NCBI RefSeq assembly: GCF_029960785.1
Contig: NZ_JASBQE010000009.1
Location: forward strand, 1-64,000
From: Polyangium sp. 15x6
GTDB taxonomy: Bacteria > Myxococcota_A > Polyangia > Polyangiales > Polyangiaceae
Direction: 5' to 3'
Length of the DNA: 64,000 nucleotides
Made by a program: the position numbers and the translations under genes. The notes below the pieces were generated by a model, which did no database searches, had not been told where the DNA came from, and worked only from the letters and a program-made list of their open reading frames with translations. The stretch's first letter is position 1, and every line of letters starts with the position of its first letter. Positions 2,097 through 51,690 of the stretch are shown piece after piece.

Positions 2097-3095
2097 ATGG
2101 GAATTCCGCTCTCCGTGCTCGATCTGGCGCCGGTTCGTCGGGGGTCCGGCGTGAGCGAGGCCTTTGCCGAGAGCATCGATCTGGCGCGCCATGTCGAGGC
2201 GCTCGGCTATCGGCGGTACTGGTTCGCCGAGCACCATGCCATGCCGGGCATCGCGTCGGCGTCGCCCGCGGTGCTGATTGCGCGGATCGCCGCAGCGACG
2301 TCGACGATTCGTGTCGGCTCGGGCGGCGTGATGCTCCCGAACCACGCGCCCCTCGTGATCGCGGAGCAATTCGGCACGCTCGAGGCGCTCTTCCCCGGCC
2401 GTATCGACCTCGGCATCGGCCGCGCCCCGGGCACCGACCCGCTCACGGCGTCGGCGCTGGGCCGCGATGATCCGACGACGGGCGAGGGCCTGCCCGCGAT
2501 GCTCGACGAGCTCTACGGGTTTTTCCGCGGCGACTTCGGCGAGGATCACGCCTACCATGGCATTCGCGCCGTCCCGGCGCTCGGCCATGAACCGCCGGTC
2601 TGGCTGCTCGGGTCGAGCGGCTACAGCGCCAAGGTCGCCGGCCGGCGCGGCTTGCCCTTCGCGTTTGCCCACCATTTCAGCCAGGCCAATACGCTGCCGG
2701 CCCTCGAGCTCTACCGGAAGACGTTCAGCCCGTCGGCCGTGCTCTCCCAGCCCGAAGCGATGATCGGCGCGATCGTGATCGTCGCCGACACGGACGCCGA
2801 GGCGCGGCGCCTCGCGCTCCCGAGCGCGCTCGCATTCATGCGCGTGCGCCAGGGCAAGCGCGAGCCCTATCCGACGATCGAGGAGGCGGAGACGTATCCG
2901 TGGGCGCCGGAGGAGCAAGCCTTCGCCGAGAAATGGCTCGCGCAGAACATCGTCGGCGGCCCGGCGTCCGTGCGTGAGCAGCTCGAAAAGCTCCTCGATG
3001 AAACCCGCGCCGACGAGCTGATGGTGTTATGCGTGGTGCCGGATGCGGAGGCGCGCAAGCGCTCGTATACGCTGCTCAGGGAGCTCCACGGCTGA
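2097..3095 (+). CDS. luciferase-like (LLM class) flavin-dependent monooxygenase
   Basis: 332-residue single-domain TIM-barrel oxidoreductase of the bacterial luciferase superfamily, closest in pattern to the YhbW/MsnO8-type branch. These enzymes use reduced flavin and oxygen to oxidise a small substrate that cannot be named from sequence. Diagnostic stretches are '[17 protein letters not shown]' near residue 45, '[20 protein letters not shown]' near 80, '[16 protein letters not shown]' near 105 and '[12 protein letters not shown]' near 170. The ATG at 2097 is chosen because a strong ribosome site (GGAGGAGGT) lies 6 bases upstream; the frame is open further 5' but overlaps the preceding gene. 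No flavin reductase gene is adjacent. Confidence 0.9.
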
Positions 3096-3111
3096 TTTCG
3101 CCGCGCGCGTC

Positions 3112-3137
3112 GAGGTGCGGGCGAGGTCTCGCACCTC
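3112..3137. terminator. terminator-like hairpin between convergent genes
   Basis: A perfect 8-base inverted repeat (GAGGTGCG / CGCACCTC) with a 10-base loop lies in the 54-base gap between two genes transcribed towards each other. There is no T-run on either side, so it may be a hairpin barrier or a factor-assisted end. Confidence 0.45.
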
Positions 3138-3149
3138 CGTTCGTCGAGC

Positions 3150-3491
3150 CTACTTTACTTCTCGCGTCACCTTGGAGTTCCACGGGCAAAAATGGCAGCC
3201 CGGAAGGAACGCGCCGCAAGCTTCATCGAGGTGCTCCTCGACATACGTCATGTCGGCATCACAGACTTCGATCGCCATCGCGAAGAAGCTGATCGTAGCG
3301 GGATCGAGGTGATACGACCAGTTCGGGTTGTAGTCCACTCGTCTCTTCACGATCCGCCCATGGACATGCACCTCGTTCTGTTCCTCTCCAGAGATGATCC
3401 GGCGCGCCTTGGCGATCTTCTCTTCATCGGTGATCTCGAAGATGAACTCTCTCCCTGGCGAAGAAGGTTGCGTGAATGCAAAGCGGGCCAT
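3150..3491 (-). CDS. small BP74-like conserved protein
   Basis: 113-residue protein without signal peptide. The layout 'ISGEEQNEVHVHGRIVKR' then 'YNPNWSYHLDPATISFFAMA' then 'EVCDADMTYVEEHLDEACG' then 'LPGCHFCPWNSKVTREV' matches, from memory, a small family annotated as BP74 N-terminal-like in bacteria. Its biochemical role is unknown to me. The Cys-Pro-Trp near the end and the His/Asp-rich core could bind metal, which is inference. The ATG at 3491 has a GAAAGGA ribosome site 5-6 bases upstream. A 15-base palindrome lies 38-52 bases upstream (separate entry), suggesting a dedicated regulator. Confidence 0.75.
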   Translation of the reverse strand: MARFAFTQPSSPGREFIFEITDEEKIAKARRIISGEEQNEVHVHGRIVKRRVDYNPNWSYHLDPATISFFAMAIEVCDADMTYVEEHLDEACGAFLPGCHFCPWNSKVTREVK

Positions 3492-3528
3492 GACGTTTCC
3501 TTTCGCGGGGGCTCGTGTGTATTGGACG

Positions 3529-3543
3529 GGTGTCTACGACACC
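3529..3543. promoter_or_regulatory. operator-like palindrome upstream of the BP74-like gene
   Basis: GGTGTC-TAC-GACACC is a perfect 6+6 inverted repeat with a 3-base centre, 38-52 bases upstream of the start at 3491. Position and symmetry suit a dimeric repressor site; no cognate regulator is seen in the window. Confidence 0.3.
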
Positions 3544-3696
3544 GAGTTCCGCCCCCCCGGCCCCGGGTTAGGCCGGTCTTCCGGAGAAGTCAACGGTACT
3601 CCTCCGTACGCTGAATCCGTGCTGGCGGACGCGAATTTCTGCTCGCCTCTTGCGAAGGGAACACGATGCCCCGCTCCGTGCTCGGGGCGCGGTCGA

Positions 3697-4006
3697 TGAC
3701 CCGGGTCAAAGCCGAGGGCTGACGGCCAGGCGTTGGAGCTCACCCGGGTCATCTGTGAGGCCCGCGGACGGGGCGTGGGGATGCCCCGGGTCAGGTCCGA
3801 GGGCCGACGGCCAGGCGTTGGGGCTCACCCGGGTCATCTGTGAGGCCCGCGGACGGGGCGTGGGGATGCCCCGGGTCAGGTCCGAGGGCCGACGGCCAGG
3901 CGTTGGGGCTCACCCGGGTCATCTGCGAGGCCCGCGGACGGGGCGTGGGGATGCCCCGGGTCAGGTCCGAGGGCCGACGGTTGCGTGTCGTGGATGACCC
4001 GGGTCA
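3697..4006. repeat. tandem array of 42/43-base units (85-base dimers) with eight CCCGGGTCA boxes
   Basis: CCCGGGTCA occurs at 3700, 3743, 3785, 3828, 3870, 3913, 3955 and 3998, a spacing of 43, 42, 43, 42, 43, 42 and 43 bases. The first and last boxes are full 12-base palindromes (TGACCCGGGTCA at 3697-3708 and 3995-4006). Alternate units are nearly identical over 85 bases; the two halves of each 85-mer are diverged copies of one another (both contain GAGG, CCG and a GGCGT-GGGG block). The spacing is close to four DNA turns, so the boxes would face one side of the helix. The array lies in a non-coding gap (3492-4267). Confidence 0.8.
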
Positions 4007-4010
4007 TGTG

Positions 4011-4143
4011 CAACCGGAATCTTGGGTGACACATCAGACCGGGACCTCGGGTGACACTTCTTCGCTTCTCGAGAGGTCGACCCATCACCTTGGGTGGCGC
4101 AACCCGGGGGCTCCGGCACGTAGACCGGGACCATGGGTGACAC
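4011..4143. repeat. three GGGTGACAC direct repeats, possible insertion-sequence end
   Basis: AGACCGGGACC-NN-GGGTGACAC occurs at 4036-4057 and 4122-4143, and a diverged copy (CAACCGGAATC-TT-GGGTGACAC) at 4011-4032. Multiple short directly repeated boxes of this kind are typical of the termini of some transposable elements, for example IS21-like ones. No transposase frame is adjacent, so this would be an orphan end or remnant. The rest of the gap (4144-4267) shows no feature I can support. Confidence 0.5.
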
Positions 4144-4267
4144 TGTTCGGCAGGGCAGGTACGGAGACGGTTTGGGGGGCGGGGATCCGGGGAGCTGGGG
4201 GGAGTGGCCAGGCCAACCGTTGAGCCCGTCCCTGTGGGTGTGGTAACCGTGGGAAGCGCCGAAGGTG

Positions 4268-4558
4268 ATGGGCATGCGCTTGCTGTGGCTTCTGCTTGGG
4301 GTGCCGTGGTGGGGACGGGGTGTGCGTCGCCGTCGGTGACGGCGACGCAGTGCATGCCCCCGAACTGGTGCGCAGAGCAAACGCCCCTCTGTTACAACAG
4401 TTGCAGCGGTACGGTTCACCATCGATGCGGGCGACTGCATGCCCCTCGATAACAACTACTATTGCCTGGAACGTGTCGTCGACGCGGAGTCGGCGACGTT
4501 CCGGGCCACGTACAAAAAGCCCACCCACCCGTTGGGCAACCTCGAGCGAATTCAGTAG
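4268..4558 (+). pseudogene. small Cys-rich lipoprotein gene with two compensating frameshifts
   Basis: No single frame gives a sensible protein, but three segments join into one. The frame from 4268 gives a lipoprotein-like start (MGMRLLWLLLGV) and stops at 4339. The neighbouring frame gives a lipobox-like 'GTGCASPS' and 'QCMPPNWCAEQTPLCYNSC'. After about 4410 the first frame resumes with 'FTIDAGDCMPLDNNYYC' through 'HPLGNLERIQ' to TAG at 4556-4558. Two opposite single-base shifts restore frame, which suggests a decayed gene or paired sequencing errors. The product would be a roughly 95-residue lipoprotein with at least seven Cys. It converges on the radical SAM gene, only 2 bases away. Confidence 0.4.
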
Positions 4559-4560
4559 CG

Positions 4561-5808
4561 CTATGCCTGCCCTTGCCTCGGGCGCCGCGTGATCTGAACG
4601 AGGCCCTCCACCGGGCCGAGCGGCGCCGGCTCGGGGGCGTCGAGAGGCTCGACGACGAGCTCGAAGAGGCCGTGATCGAACGGTTTTCCCTCGGCCGCCG
4701 CGGCGGGGACGAGCCGCTCGCGTTTGCCCTCGGCGGCGAGCGTGCGCGCGCGGAAATGGCAATACGGGTTGTTTCCGGGTCGGCCGAAGAGCGCGTGCGC
4801 GGTGAACGTGCAGCCGCCCATGCAGACCTCGGCGAACGAGCAGGTGCGGCAATGACCCCAGAGGTCGTCGATGGTGCGGTTTCGCGCGAACGCAAGGGCC
4901 GGGGCCTCGTCCCAGATCGCGCCGAGGCTCCTCTCGCGTAACGTGCCGCCGACGTAGGGATGGCTTTGCAAGGAGGGACAACCCTTCACCGCGCCGTCCG
5001 ATTCGATCCCGAGGACACGTTTTCCCGCCTGACAGCCAATGAAATGGTCGCGCCCGCCCTCTTTCACGGAGCGCAGGAGCGCCTCCTCGGGGCCGAAATA
5101 GCCGAGGTTGTTGCCGGGCATCAGCGTGATGCCGTCGCGGAAGGCGCGGCGCTTCAGCGCGGCGACGCGTGGCACGACGTCGAGCAGGTCGTAAGGCTGA
5201 AGCAGCATGTCCGGGCGATCGGCGGCGCGGCCGAGGGCGGCCGTGATCTGGACCTGCCAGGCGACGATGCCGAGCACGCGCAGGTGCTCGTAGAGCGCTT
5301 CGAGGTCGCCCCGATTGACGCGGTTCACGTTCGTGTTCGCCGCGACGAAGAGGCCCGCCCCGCGCAGATGGCCGATCGCGCGCGTGGCGCTCTCGAAGCT
5401 CGATTTCGCTCGGCGGATGAGGTCGTGCGTGCGCGCGAGCCCGTCGACGCTCACCGAGACGCTGTGCAGACCCGCTTCTTTCATGGCCCGCGCGAGCGCC
5501 GCGTCGATCCCGCGGCCGCCCGTGGTCATGGTGGGCCGGATCCCTGCATTCTTGAGGGCCCGGACAATTTCGAGGAAACCCTCGTGCAGGTATGCCTCGC
5601 CGCCGATGAGCACGACTTCCCGCGCGCGGCGCTCCTTCAATTGCTGGACGACGCCGAGCGCCTCCTCGGTCCCGAGCTCGGTCGTCCGCGGCCCGCCGGC
5701 GCGTGAACCGCAATGGGCGCAGGGCTGATCGCAGCGGAGCGTGAGCTCCCAGACGACATAGGCGGGATGATGGTCGTCAGCGAGCACGGGGACGCGGCGG
5801 AGGGGCAT
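4561..5808 (-). CDS. radical SAM/SPASM domain enzyme
   Basis: 415-residue protein. The radical SAM core carries C26-x3-C30-x2-C33 (LRCDQPCAHCG) for the SAM-binding [4Fe-4S] cluster, followed by 'VVLIGGEAYLHEGF'. The C-terminal third is a SPASM-type region with 'GIESDGAVKGCPS' and 'CRTCSFAEVCMGGC', expected to bind auxiliary clusters. The family includes peptide-modifying enzymes and enzymes acting on small molecules; the substrate here is unknown. ATG at 5808 is preferred because it begins directly before the conserved 'ADDHHPAYVVWELTLRC'; a GTG at 5835 is possible. It starts 30 bases after the histidine kinase gene on the same strand and may be cotranscribed. No clear RiPP precursor is present, but a Cys-rich small frame lies at its 3' end. 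Confidence 0.9.
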   Translation of the reverse strand: MPLRRVPVLADDHHPAYVVWELTLRCDQPCAHCGSRAGGPRTTELGTEEALGVVQQLKERRAREVVLIGGEAYLHEGFLEIVRALKNAGIRPTMTTGGRGIDAALARAMKEAGLHSVSVSVDGLARTHDLIRRAKSSFESATRAIGHLRGAGLFVAANTNVNRVNRGDLEALYEHLRVLGIVAWQVQITAALGRAADRPDMLLQPYDLLDVVPRVAALKRRAFRDGITLMPGNNLGYFGPEEALLRSVKEGGRDHFIGCQAGKRVLGIESDGAVKGCPSLQSHPYVGGTLRERSLGAIWDEAPALAFARNRTIDDLWGHCRTCSFAEVCMGGCTFTAHALFGRPGNNPYCHFRARTLAAEGKRERLVPAAAAEGKPFDHGLFELVVEPLDAPEPAPLGPVEGLVQITRRPRQGQA

Positions 5809-5838
5809 GGCGGCGCTCAGGTTACCACCACGCACGCC

Positions 5839-16998: not shown

Positions 16999-19900
16999 AT
17001 GTCCTCCGCTCGTACCCGTCCCGTCTGGCTCGTCCCGGCCGTGCTGCTCGCCTCCTCGTTCGGCCTCGTTTGCAGCAGCACGCCCTCCGTTCCGACCACC
17101 CTGCCCGGACAACCCCCGCCGCCCGTCGTCATCGAGCGAGCCGTGCACAAGGGCGACGAGCCGCTGGTCTTCCCTCCTGCCGTGTCGCGCAATGCGCGCC
17201 TGCCGGTGTACGGCGACGAGGTCGAGCGCACCTCCACCGACCTCGACGTCCAGAGCCCGAGCCTCGACAGCGACGGCAAATTCTCCTTTCGCGGCACCTC
17301 GTTCCGCATCTCCTTCAATCAGCGTGTCGCCCGCCCCGCGGCCGATCCCAATGCGAAGGGCCCCACGAAGGCCGCCGAGGGCACGATTCGCCTGACGCCG
17401 AGCGTCGAGGGGGAGGCGCATTGGCTGAACGACACCACGCTCGAATTCGTGGCGAAGCGCCCCTTCGACACGGAGACCACGTACGGCGTGGAGCTCGGCG
17501 AAGTGAAGACGCCCGCGGGCGCCGGCCTGAAGCAGGCGTGGAAAGCGCAATTCAAGGCGACGCCGGGCGTCACGATCGCCGGAAAGGACCTCGGCTACCT
17601 CCCCGTTCCCGGCCGCCACCGCGTGATCGCGATGCACCCGAACGACGGTCTCGACGTCGGCGCGCGCGCGACGTTTGCCGTGCTCTATGATCAGCCGATC
17701 GATCTCGGCCTCGCGCGCAGCCTGATCACGCTGACGGAGGCGGCGAGCGAGAGACCCATCTCCGTCGTCTTCGATCATCCGAAGACGCCGACGTTCCAGG
17801 GGATCAAGGTCGATCCCAAGTTCGTCGTGCTCGTCCGGCCCGTCTCGCCCGTCGCGCCCGGCACGAAGCTGGTCCTCCAGGCAAAACCTCGCTTCCTGGA
17901 AAAACTCCATCAGGCGCGCGAAGTCGAAGTGACCGTGGCCGAGCCGCTCGCGTTCCAGGACGTGACGTGTGAATGGTACTGGGACGACGACGGACGGCAG
18001 CGGTCGTGCACGTTCCAGGACGGGAAGCTGTACACGGCGGGGCGCGAGATTCGCGTGGCGTTCAATCATGCCGTCGCGACCCCGGACGACAAGCTCGCGG
18101 CCCGCGTGCGGGTGAGCCCGCCCGTGCGGAACATGACCCTGCGGAACGAGCGCTGGGACGATGAAATCGTGATCCGCGGCGAGTTCGAGCCCTCGAAATC
18201 GTACGAGGTCACGATCGAGGGCCTCACCGACGATCACGGAAGCCGCCTCGCGAAGCCCGTCTCGTTCCGCGTCGAGATGGCCCCGATGCCGGCGAGCGTG
18301 ACGATGGCGGACGGCATGTTGTGGCTCGATCCGGAGACGACGCGCCATTTCGCCGTGACCTCGCGCAACGTCGCGAAAGCTTCGCTCCTCGCCTGGCCCG
18401 TCGCCTCCGCGGACCGCGCCGCGCAGGAGGTCGCGCTCCGGCGCGTGCGCACGCGGGACCTGCCTCCCGAGGCCGCGCCCGTGCGGATTCCGATCGCCAT
18501 CAAGGCCGAACGAAACAAGCTCGTCACGACACGAATCGATCTCTCGAAGCACCTGTCGGCGGGGCAAAGTTACGTCACGACGATCGCCGCCGACGAGATT
18601 GCCTTCGGCGCGAAGCTCGTGAAGTTCTCGCGCGGCAGCGAGGCGGGGAAGCCGATCGTCGCATTGATTCGTCCCGGCGACGAGCGTTCGCTCGCCGTGC
18701 ATACCCGCGCGACGCCGAATGCGACGCTCGTGCAGGTCTCGCGGCTCGCGGGCGGCGCGCCGGTGCAGGGCGCGCTCGTGCGCCTCTCGGGCGACGAGAA
18801 TTCGGCCGGTGTGACCACGGATGCCTCGGGCGTCGCGCTCCTGCCGTTCGACCTGCGCACGACCGAGCGGCCTTTCCTCGACGTGCGCGCGCAGGACGCC
18901 GATTTCATTCTTCCGCTCGATGGGGACGGGATCACCGAGCGCCAGATCTTTCCGGACCTCGCCTCGGGTGAGGGCGCGCCCTCGTCGTTCGGGCGGGCGT
19001 TCGTCCTGACGGACCGCGGCATTTACCGGCCCGGTTCGAGCGTGTTCGTCAAGGCAACCGTTCGCAAACCCGACGGGGCCACGCTCTCGCCCATTTCCGG
19101 CGCGTCCCTGCGATTGCACGTCGTGGGCCCGACGGGCGACGACGTCTTCCAGCAGACGCTCACGACGAACGACATGGGCAGCCTCTCCACGACGATCACC
19201 ATTCCGGCCGACGCCAAGATCGGCCGGCACCAGATCCTCCTGGAGCAGCCCGAGCAAGGTCAGGACGGCGAGCCGCTCGCGCAGACGATCGTGCAGGTGG
19301 CCGAGTTCGAGCCGCCTCGATTCGTGGTCGACGTCGATGCGTCCGCGGACGCCAAGAATACGCTGCGGGCCGAGGTGCGGGCGCGATATCTGTTCGGCGC
19401 GCCGATGGACGGCGCGACCGCGTCGTGGACGGTGCGGCGCGAGGGCGCGCCTTTCCCGGAGGGGCCTTTGACCTCGGCGGGGCTCTCGTTCCGGCGCGCG
19501 CCTCGCTGGTACGACGACGAGGAGCAGCCGTGGTCGCGCGCGGGCGAGGGATCGCTCTCGGCCGATGGGAAGCTCGCGGTGGTGCAGGCGCTCGAAATCG
19601 CGCCCGCGCTCGGGCCGCAGAGATTCGTGATCGAGGCGGACGTGACCGACGCCTCCCACCGGCACGTCGCGGGGAGGGGGAGCGTCGTGGTTCATCCGGC
19701 CAAACGGTATGCCGGCATGAAGCTGCCTTCGACGTGGTATGGCGTGGGCGACGACGTTCCCGTCGAGCTCGGCGTGATCGATCCGGAGGGGCGGCCCGTC
19801 GAGGGCACGACCGTGACGGCGAAGCTCGAGCGGATCGAGTGGCAATATGCGAGGCGGCGCGGCGCGGGCGGGTCGCTCGAATGGGACTGGACGTCGAAGC

Positions 19901-49177: not shown

Positions 49178-51690
49178 AGATCGTCCTCCGACCAAAGCCT
49201 CGGCTCGAGGTCTCCCGGCAGCGGCGTCTGGCCGACGAGCACCGCTCCGATCCACACGCGATCGACGCTCTCGATCTTGATCGTCCGGAGCCCCGGCTCG
49301 AGGTCGTCGCCGATCGGGATTTTTACCTTGGCGAGGCCATCCAGGTTTTTCCGCGCTTCCTTCGCCGTCCGTCGCGCCTCCCAGAGCAGGCCCATCCCCG
49401 CGTCGCCCGTGCGCCCCGAGAGCTCGCCGCTGGCCGTCGTGATCGACCGGAAAAACGCGCTCTTCTGCCGCGCCGGTTTGCCCCCGTCGATGCTGTAGCG
49501 AATCTTGAACGGGCGCGCCGACGCTTCGCTGATCACGAACAGCACGAGCGTGAGCGACTCGCCCGGGCGCTGCCGGAACGTGAACGAGAGCGGCTCGCGC
49601 GCGGGCAGCTCGAAGACGTCGCGGCGACGCATGATCCCGCCGCCTTCCCACGGCGCCGCGTCCGCGTACGCGAGCCCGTCGCCGATGCCCTTCACCTGGA
49701 TGTCGTGGACGCCGGCCTTGAGGCTCGCCCGCAGCACGCCCGAGAGCGACGCGATAGGCTGCTCCACCATGTTCTTCCCGTCGATCCAGAGCTCGGCCAT
49801 CTTCCCGAGCCGCGACGGATGCGCCCGGTAGAGCACCTTCAGCCGCCCACCGCGCTCCCCCGCGTAGCCGATCCCGAGCTTGAGCGGGCTCTCCAGATCG
49901 AGCGGCGTCCACCCGTCGTTCGGGAGCAGCTCCTTCGCGGCGATCTCGTACGGCGCGAGGAAGCGACGCCGGACGGGCGCTTGGTCCGGCACGAGCGTGC
50001 GCTCGGGCTTCTGGCCGGCCTCGCTCGGCGAAGGCTGGCCGCGCAGCTCGATGCGCACCTGCTCGTAGAGGTCGGCGATGCGGCCTTGCCGTTCGAGCTC
50101 GTTCTGGTTCTCGGCGCGGATGGGCGTCCAGGTGCGCACGTCGAACGGCGCGTATCGCCAGATCTCGTTCTCCGCGAGCTCGACGCGGTACGGCACGCGC
50201 AGGATGTCCTCGGGCACGCCGGGATCGAGCACGCGCAGGTGCACGCGCATGTGAGCGTCGCCGAGGATCTCGATCTTCGTCGCGCCCTTCGGGATGCGCA
50301 GGATCGCGCGGCGCGGATCGGTCGCGTCGGCCTCGGTCTTGTCGCTCCCGGAGGCGAGCGCGCCGCCCTCCTCGGCCTGATCCCGCGGCCTGCCCCAGCG
50401 TTCGAAGCGCGAGTACGGCAAGGTCTGGCGCAGCTCGGCGCGCTCGTTCGGCCCGGGGCCCCAGCGCGCGACGACGGTGCCGGACATCGAATCGGGCGCG
50501 CCTGCCTCGGGCAGCTCCGCGCGGAGAAGCAGGCCGAGGTAGGGCTGCTCCGGCGCCACGCGCGCGAGGACCGGCCGCTCCGGATCGAGCTTCAAATACT
50601 TCACGACCCGCACGTCGGGCCGGATCTCGAGCCGTTCCCCCTCGAACGGCAGCGCGATGAGATCGCCGATCTGCGCGCGCTCGTACGGTTTCGGAAGGAC
50701 GAACCGCACGAGGAAATCGTCGCCCTTGCCCTCGACGACGAACGTGCGCGGGTTGAGGCGCGACGACGACACGTGAAACACGCCGTCCTCGGGCACCGTG
50801 AGCATCCGCGCGCCGCCGCCTCCGCCCTCGCTGACCGTCACCGTTCGCCCCGGCGGCGCGAGCACGTCGAGCTCGACCGGACCCATCACGTTGATCGCCG
50901 CCGCGTGCCGCTCGCCCACCGAATACCCCGGCACCGTGCCCGCGGCCGCGGGGAAGGGCGTGCGGTAGTTGCGGAGCAAGAGCCGCCGGAGCGAGTAGTC
51001 CTTGCCTTCGAGCCCGGCCGCGTCGAGGCGCCGATCCCAGCCCGAGAGCGCGCGCGATCGCGCCGTCTCGGGGAGATCCTCGAAGCCGAGCGAGGTCATG
51101 TCCGACACGACGCGCGAGCGATCCTCGTCGTCGAGGCTCATCTCGTAGAACGTGCGCTCGTACGATCCGCGCCGGTATCGACCTTCCACGCGCGAGAGCA
51201 CGTCCTTCACCGAGATCGGCAGCCCCCGCATCCGCATCACGCCGCCGCGCGGCAAGAGCTCCCCCGTCGTGATCGTGGTCGTGCGTGGATCGAGCACCCA
51301 CTCGTCGCCCTGCGCGACCCGCGCGGCGTACTCGCCCGCCGTGGCGCCGTCCTTGTCGTCGCACGAGAGCCGGCTCTCGAGCTCGAACCTGTGCGTCTGG
51401 ACGTCCTTGCCGTGCTCGTCGACGAACGTTGCTTCGAATCCGTACGAAAAACGTGCCTTTGGATCACAAACGGTCACGCGGGGCACGAGGGCCCAGGTCG
51501 AGACCACGACCGCGTCGATCGACGAGGGCACCTTCACGGCGACGGGTTTGTCGGGGTCGACGCGATACGCGAGGATCTCGTCCATCGCGGGCAGCGCGAG
51601 GTGGGACGCGGGCGGCGGCGAGGTGAGCGGCCAGAGCAAGGCCGCCCAGCCGAAGAAGAGGATCGCGACGATGAACCAGCGGATGATCAC
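49174..51690 (-). CDS. membrane-anchored beta-rich periplasmic protein of the CapBC-like operon
   Basis: 838 residues. A single signal-anchor helix (IIRWFIVAILFFGWAALLWP) puts the rest outside the inner membrane. The exported part is rich in short beta strands with Pro and Arg and ends in 'IKIESVDRVWIGAVLVGQTP'. A conspicuous Gly run (SEGGGGGARMLTVPEDGVFH) lies near 340. No catalytic motif or family is recognised; it could be a periplasmic scaffold between the inner-membrane synthase and the outer-membrane protein. The GTG start at 51690 overlaps the CapC-like stop (GTGA). A longer frame upstream to 52407 is overlap with that gene. Confidence 0.6.
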   Translation of the reverse strand: MIIRWFIVAILFFGWAALLWPLTSPPPASHLALPAMDEILAYRVDPDKPVAVKVPSSIDAVVVSTWALVPRVTVCDPKARFSYGFEATFVDEHGKDVQTHRFELESRLSCDDKDGATAGEYAARVAQGDEWVLDPRTTTITTGELLPRGGVMRMRGLPISVKDVLSRVEGRYRRGSYERTFYEMSLDDEDRSRVVSDMTSLGFEDLPETARSRALSGWDRRLDAAGLEGKDYSLRRLLLRNYRTPFPAAAGTVPGYSVGERHAAAINVMGPVELDVLAPPGRTVTVSEGGGGGARMLTVPEDGVFHVSSSRLNPRTFVVEGKGDDFLVRFVLPKPYERAQIGDLIALPFEGERLEIRPDVRVVKYLKLDPERPVLARVAPEQPYLGLLLRAELPEAGAPDSMSGTVVARWGPGPNERAELRQTLPYSRFERWGRPRDQAEEGGALASGSDKTEADATDPRRAILRIPKGATKIEILGDAHMRVHLRVLDPGVPEDILRVPYRVELAENEIWRYAPFDVRTWTPIRAENQNELERQGRIADLYEQVRIELRGQPSPSEAGQKPERTLVPDQAPVRRRFLAPYEIAAKELLPNDGWTPLDLESPLKLGIGYAGERGGRLKVLYRAHPSRLGKMAELWIDGKNMVEQPIASLSGVLRASLKAGVHDIQVKGIGDGLAYADAAPWEGGGIMRRRDVFELPAREPLSFTFRQRPGESLTLVLFVISEASARPFKIRYSIDGGKPARQKSAFFRSITTASGELSGRTGDAGMGLLWEARRTAKEARKNLDGLAKVKIPIGDDLEPGLRTIKIESVDRVWIGAVLVGQTPLPGDLEPRLWSEDDL

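Follow-up and report, generated by a model that had tools for sequence, protein, structure and literature searches.

Intergenic tandem arrays with a unit-length quantum of about 21.3 bp in Polyangium and relatives, and the probable landing of an IS481-family element at their edges

Tandem repeats in bacteria are usually ascribed to slippage, which favours no non-triplet unit length. The sopC centromere of the F plasmid is built of 43-bp tandem repeats with palindromes. Among dispersed intergenic repeats, REP sequences are known targets of insertion sequences (ISs) of the IS3, IS110, IS4, IS256 and IS5 families (PMC1525189); IS481 is not one of these five REP-targeting families and is not mentioned in the main text of that paper. 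In Borg elements, many independent, locus-specific intergenic arrays turn over fast, some with units of 20–21 nt (PMC9879509), and neither "helical" nor "transposon" appears in the main text of that report. In the text available for RepRanger (PMC12306157) and for the GTAG/CGTC paper (PMC3733652), Polyangium, Sorangium and Myxococc- names are not mentioned. Titles and abstract openings among the literature matches listed, in which few subscription journals are represented, contained nothing on arrays quantised at 21.3 bp or on their association with IS481.

The window analysed here is a stretch of 64,000 nucleotides from Polyangium sp. 15x6 (contig NZ_JASBQE010000009.1, positions 1 to 64,000), and it contains a tandem array that invites comparison with each of these systems. 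The array shares with sopC a 43-bp period and a palindrome in each unit; unlike sopC, it has no plasmid match, the neighbouring genes that were scanned include none for partition, and further arrays lie elsewhere in the genome. These arrays resemble REP/BIME sequences and the ISs that target REPs (PMC1525189, PMC2817692) in being intergenic, often palindromic and IS hot spots, with some families dispersed. They are unlike REP/BIME in that arrays of unrelated sequence have unit lengths near multiples of about 21.3 bp, in that the window family has a single other relative in its genome and in that RAYT was not found in three of six genomes; unlike the REP-targeting ISs known, the element here belongs to the IS481 family and its right end consistently faces the array. 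Many independent, locus-specific intergenic arrays with fast turnover and, in part, 20–21-nt units are likewise the mark of Borg repeats, which differ in being A-enriched, nearly perfect and located on archaeal extrachromosomal elements (PMC9879509).

A simple gene caller leaves 3096–4560 as the largest gap in the window, the next largest being 543 bp. It missed an ORF for a BP74_N-domain protein (3150–3491); with this ORF taken into account, the remaining 3492–4560, which holds the array, is still the longest gene-free stretch in the window, as stated in the initial annotation. For the neighbouring radical SAM protein, P. fumosum and two strains of Polyangium supply the closest relatives (94–95% identity), which places the genome in Polyangium. 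The parts of the locus are as follows.

2097–3095, forward strand: MsnO8-family LLM class oxidoreductase (luciferase-like monooxygenase; TIGR03558, 431.8 bits), anchor gene
3150–3491, reverse strand: BP74_N-domain protein of 113 aa (PF23621, 171.8 bits), left neighbour of the array
3683–4006, no strand assigned: tandem array, 85-bp unit x3.5 (43+42 dimers), with eight CCCGGGTCA boxes at 3700–4006, the outer two in TGACCCGGGTCA
4007–4161, forward strand: decayed IS481-family right end, flush with the array at its outer tip, TGTGCAACC; the full copy in genome G039 supplied the family name
4011–4033, 4036–4058 and 4122–4144: three direct repeats of about 23 bp within the right end
4162–4214, no strand assigned: unassigned DNA separating the IS right end from the flank conserved with P. 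fumosum, probably insertion debris
4215–4413, no strand assigned: flank conserved with the orthologous P. fumosum locus (88% identity over 200 bp; L086 7769–7964), which anchors the site comparison
4561–5835, reverse strand: radical SAM/SPASM protein (protein comparison and domain scan), anchor gene

Eight CCCGGGTCA boxes lie on the forward strand of the array, starting at 3700, 3743, 3785, 3828, 3870, 3913, 3955 and 3998. Their spacing alternates exactly (43, 42, 43, 42, 43, 42 and 43 bp), and the outer two sit in perfect TGACCCGGGTCA palindromes (3697 and 3995). This geometry had been recorded correctly in the initial annotation, and its judgement that such regularity exceeds chance is borne out: both strands of the window together hold ten matches to the 9-mer, all inside the array, compared with a mean of 0.89 and a maximum of 4 in 100 shuffles. 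TRF describes the array as an 85-bp unit repeated 3.5 times (95% match, 3683–3980), which is a 43+42 dimer, or with a shorter period as a 43-bp unit repeated 7.3 times (70% match, 3695–4006). Palindromic units, a criterion for REP/BIME, are present, and each strand of the array forms a more stable fold than its shuffled versions (z −3.94 and −3.5). The array thus fits the earlier reading of a palindromic intergenic element amplified in dimers of 85 bases, with a phasing of roughly four helical turns, and its unit-length family also recurs in the two Polyangium genomes sampled (see below).

Scattering of the unit through coding DNA, which had been named beforehand as counter-evidence, was not seen, as the 9-mer does not occur outside the array in the window and the 12-mer TGACCCGGGTCA is near unique. 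The latter is found at four places in the 13.38-Mb assembly, twice in the window array and at C65:14077 and C261:50005 (reversed control pattern, 0), and all seven same-strand CCCGGGTCA pairs 39–51 bp apart in the assembly lie in the window array. The sole relative of the array found in the genome (C261, about 50008–50059; L007 1524–1575) has two boxes 43 bp apart, namely CCCGGGTCA, within a perfect TGACCCGGGTCA palindrome, and CTCGGGTCA; dispersal of the family in its own genome therefore amounts to one two-box relative and not to many copies. A CRISPR array was rejected as a candidate, there being no unique spacers and the sequence between boxes itself repeating within the 85-bp unit, and Rfam gave no match over 3100–4800 at E up to 1. 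By eye, about 16 spacer bases are largely replaced in the last half-unit (3977–4015) with the 43-bp box spacing kept; the edges of this segment read GGTTGC and GCAACC, as if it were the former site of a second IS tip.

The DNA adjoining the array on its right (4007–4161) is the right end of an IS481-family element, since transposase-bearing full relatives share this end. Positions 4008–4161 have five further matches in the same genome, at 84–97% identity and some partial (six copies in total), and the right end was matched in 9 of 98 genomes of the family Polyangiaceae, its own included. In G039, two such ends enclose a 1.7-kb element with one transposase gene (L066:1355–2488), which scores 230.4 bits against the NCBI IS481 cut-off of 224 (NF033577) and also has rve domains; the right ends of this element and of the window copy are 83% identical over 52 bases. 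By eye, GCACCGCAG flanks the G039 full copy on both sides and is longer than the 3-bp duplications found elsewhere. So ceGT47 (G078), a closed Sorangium genome, holds eight near-identical full copies of 1500 bp, and five full copies in G019, of the Sorangium group, are about 90% identical to these. A DDE transposase above the NCBI cut-off in G039 is in keeping with the IS481 family, and exact 3-bp target duplications flank 8 of these 13 Sorangium-group copies. Unlike that family as generally known, the ends bear two or more direct repeats of about 25 bp, a long non-coding stretch precedes the right end (about 225 bp in the G078 copies and, between transposase stop and right end, about 470 bp in G039; L066 2492–2955), and the association with arrays is one-sided.

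Copies in Polyangium are decayed right ends, truncated at differing inner points or running off contig ends. Because the points of truncation differ, a short MITE-like mobile element with a fixed inner end was dropped as a candidate. The window copy has no transposase gene and no left end, and is a remnant. The only transposase match in the genome of the window (G000) is a 50-residue IS481 N-terminal fragment (C198:203134). Directly beside this fragment, which is followed by CTGTGCAACCGGGG, lies a 21-bp x20.6 array (L029 3048–3733; C198, about 203048–203733), and the tip motif at this site is orientated opposite to that at other sites.

Samples of 738 kb from G000 and 800 kb from a second Polyangium genome, G056 (1.54 Mb and 611 predicted intergenic gaps), contained arrays in 30 gaps. 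In 23 of these (12 in G000 and 11 in G056), the unit is 21/22, 42/43, 64, 85/86 or 129 bp long, that is, a multiple of about 21.3 bp, and we refer to such arrays as in class. The choice of the G000 sample rested partly on contigs with IS hits, which inflates the IS-bearing share there. Pieces of G056 were picked regardless of IS hits, and none of the 11 class arrays there is at an IS end, the three IS ends of that genome falling outside the sampled stretches. By extrapolation, if the sampled density holds, there would be some 200 class arrays per genome. A period that is not a multiple of three makes a codon repeat unlikely, and 11 of the 14 non-triplet arrays in Polyangium have periods of 43, 64, 85 or 86 bp, the remainder having 65, 73 and 131 bp; this excess (p = 7e-9 against uniform periods) is to be taken as rough because the class was defined after the data had been seen. 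The strongest intergenic self-match lags agree, at 43, 42, 86, 84, 85, 21 and 129 bp in G000 and 43, 86, 129, 42 and 21 bp in G056. Lags differ in G020 (78, 77 and 76 bp), where none of seven non-triplet arrays is in class. The background of So ceGT47 has three of ten non-triplet periods in class and mixed lags (30, 42, 84 and 60 bp). Small samples of G032 and G039 gave lags at multiples of 21/42 bp, some of which might stem from overlooked coding repeats, and in a small sample of other Myxococcota loci one of four arrays was in class.

Sequence is mostly not what these arrays have in common: 38 arrays form 28 sequence clusters, 21 of them singletons, and some families, for instance that of the array on C199, are dispersed at non-orthologous sites. 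In base-content spectra of the 38 arrays, the maxima fall at 21.3 and 10.6 bp, and odd harmonics of 42.5 bp (14.2 and 8.5 bp) are weak. The 21.3-bp quantum would correspond to two helical turns of DNA; in the A/T-content spectrum the 7.1-bp harmonic is as strong as the 10.6-bp one, and phasing beyond the 21.3-bp quantum is therefore not proven. At least one strand folds with z below −2 in 17 of 23 arrays (first 130 bp of each, 60 shuffles), and neither strand folds beyond shuffles at z −2 in the other six, so that hairpins are common but not required. Counting all 30 arrays, in class or not, raw shares are similar in tandem (15/334), divergent (10/200) and convergent (5/77) gaps, on which ground a terminator- or promoter-type placement was rejected.

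Adjacency of arrays and ISs was scored at 36 right ends, comprising 23 sites (28 places minus five left ends, namely two in G063, two in G084 and one at 6297258 in G039) and the 13 full copies from G078 and G019. The positions of right ends were set by eye, and two sites in G086 (C147 and C130) were matched weakly, with E values of 5e-4 and 9e-4. An array (TRF score at least 80, period at least 18) was counted as adjacent if it started no more than 150 bp outside the right end. Such arrays were found at 29 of the 36 right ends; all 29 are in class, with best periods of 21–22, 42–43, 64–65, 84–86 or 129 bp. For comparison, 400 positions were drawn each way in G000, G056 and G078 only: 387 usable random intergenic positions gave 13 arrays in class and 9 out of class, and 399 usable random genomic positions gave 2 and 6, respectively. 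The difference (Fisher, 3e-28) is rough, given that the class was defined after the data had been seen. Nor are the sites fully independent: copies in one and the same genome have a common ancestry, and a dispersed repeat recurs together with its array at three P. fumosum sites. No array lay within 150 bp at the remaining seven (G000 C239 and C245, G086 C130, G014 C23, G056 7.25 Mb, G093 C139 and G078 L256); at G093 C139, a 42-bp array begins about 170 bp off, past the limit.

The association is one-sided. Among 14 full copies (eight in G078, five in G019 and one in G039), an in-class array lies outside the right end in 13 and outside the left end in two; one further left end has a 31-bp repeat. 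At a left end in G063, no array was found outside. When the edges of 44 arrays were pooled, the 40 most enriched k-mers were all IS-end sequence.

Several further observations concern the surroundings of individual arrays. Outside the G000 right end on C245 (L006, about 1460–1510), where TRF reported no array, a single unit of the L030 4080–4140 family can be seen by eye. The three P. fumosum sites (C178, C161 and C33) have in common a dispersed repeat of about 400–530 bp, array included (75–87% identity; L225 127–666, L226 146–655 and L224 9430–9801), which also occurs in G056 at about 6279309–6280023, and the P. fumosum IS right ends sit within the arrays carried inside it. GTTGCAC is also present near the edges of P. 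fumosum and L030 arrays. Two unrelated IS-free arrays (L033, about 19360–19421, and L072, about 19450–19475) are preceded, by eye, by GGAATCTTGCT within inverted GCAAGA/TCTTGC, hinting at the edge of another element. In G078 at about 1.635 Mb (L257 1–1047), a divergent copy of IS481 is flanked, beyond its left end, by CRISPR-like repeats of 72–73 bp (GCTTCAATGGGGCCGCCGCCTTTCAGCGGCGGAGAG).

Turnover is seen at the window site, which was compared in P. fumosum, P. sp. 6x1 and y55x31. Between the same anchor genes, P. fumosum has a 21-bp unit repeated 12.6 times, and 6x1 has a degraded array (best lags 84, 105, 21, 42, 63 and 126 bp) with extra genes in the interval; blastn matches neither of these to the array of the window. 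y55x31 lacks both the interval and the LLM gene, and none of the three showed an IS end at this position. Elsewhere, by eye, the C199 site in y55x31 has no more than a short related piece and lacks an IS end, the array at C275:72671 has no counterpart in five relatives, and downstream genes at the C198 site differ between the genomes compared.

The geometry of the array, the unit-length class in the two Polyangium genomes sampled, the IS end, its repeated adjacency to arrays, the one-sidedness and the greater age of arrays at several Sorangium-group insertions were observed directly. We consider it probable, judging from these comparisons, that mostly unrelated intergenic arrays quantised at about 21.3 bp are a recurrent feature here, that an IS481-family element lands at their edges with its right end towards the array, and that the window is one such case. 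The arrays would be REP-like satellites, often palindromic, that form and are replaced locally. The IS would prefer them as landing sites, inserting at or near an edge and turning its right end to the main body of the array; the window copy would have landed at the right edge and then decayed to the right end at 4007–4161. Two-turn phasing may itself matter, and something arrayed on the DNA may both constrain unit length and attract the transposase; gyrase and nucleoid proteins are guesses prompted by the helical length. Tentatively, and with more doubt than confidence, one could go further and see a hitherto undescribed Polyangiaceae satellite class in which a dedicated process of two-turn stepping sets unit length but not sequence, and IS481 transposases that read this periodicity, or the protein responsible for it, as a polar platform on which they dock with the right end facing the array.

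An alternative is that these are ordinary REP/BIMEs spread by RAYT, with IS481 as another REP-targeting IS and the unit length without special meaning. The folding of 17 of 23 arrays beyond shuffles (z below −2 on at least one strand), the dispersal of some families at non-orthologous sites (that of the C199 array and others) and the published targeting of REPs by five other IS families (PMC1525189) would all agree with it. However, the RAYT domain (Y1_Tnp, PF01797) has no match in three of six Polyangium genomes (G056, G077 and G093), the array-rich G056 among them; it is partial in G000 (54.9 bits) and full in G086 and G014, and membership of the class in a RAYT–REP system was rejected on this basis. 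Moreover, one two-box relative of the window family was found in the genome, six of the 23 arrays have no such fold, and REP copying does not predict a single unit length across unrelated sequences. We therefore regard this explanation as unlikely.

It is also conceivable, and in our estimate rather improbable, that the IS makes the arrays, an inserted right end driving the copying of its flank in steps of about two turns and leaving a private satellite at each insertion. Many arrays are indeed flush with a right end and arrays are rare at left ends; in So ceGT47, right-end arrays accompany seven of eight full copies, all seven in class as against three of ten background non-triplet periods, and four of the five G019 copies have an array on the right side only. 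Target-duplicated copies speak against this order of events. At L233, L253 and L320, array units clearly continue directly to the left as well; left-side units are modest at L247 (score 39 vs a control maximum of 31) and weak at L240 (24 vs 20). The left flank of L320 matches an array of the other genome better than its own (73 vs 52), as expected for a shared family, yet with no clean control. As units lie on both sides of target-duplicated copies, arrays existed before at least these three insertions in Sorangium-group genomes. In addition, the IS copies of G078 are near identical while the unit identity of their arrays ranges from 76 to 99%, none of the 11 class arrays sampled in G056 coincides with an IS end detected there, and in two relatives the window site has an array, again without a detected IS end. 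Five of the 13 full copies have neither a target duplication nor a left-side array, and later deletions may therefore contribute to the one-sided placement of arrays.

The eight identical in-phase 9-mers of the window array, its palindromic outer boxes and the box spacing kept by the last half-unit though the spacer differs (by eye) might suggest that it serves to bind a single dedicated protein, be it as an iteron, a centromere-like element or a multi-operator. This is very improbable: the three scanned neighbours (LLM monooxygenase, BP74_N and radical SAM/SPASM) include no initiator, partition or regulator gene, plasmid and phage collections gave no match, two of three Polyangium relatives examined carry other 21-bp arrays, without a blastn match to this one, between the same anchor genes, and the 12-mer is nearly absent elsewhere. 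The initial annotation thus holds where it described amplified palindromic dimers with helical phasing. Its iteron reading, and with it a plasmid origin, is rejected, since those neighbours include no replication initiator and the plasmid and phage collections gave no hit. It is unlikely that the boxes form a dedicated operator, and the adjoining IS481 right end had been overlooked.

A class of many arrays per genome, mostly of unrelated sequence yet with a single length quantum, suggests that the formation or maintenance of repeats is physically constrained. The eight near-identical IS copies in the closed Sorangium genome make the association with IS481 directly testable; that association would represent the targeting of a transposon by the geometry of a repeat, not by its sequence, and with a fixed orientation.
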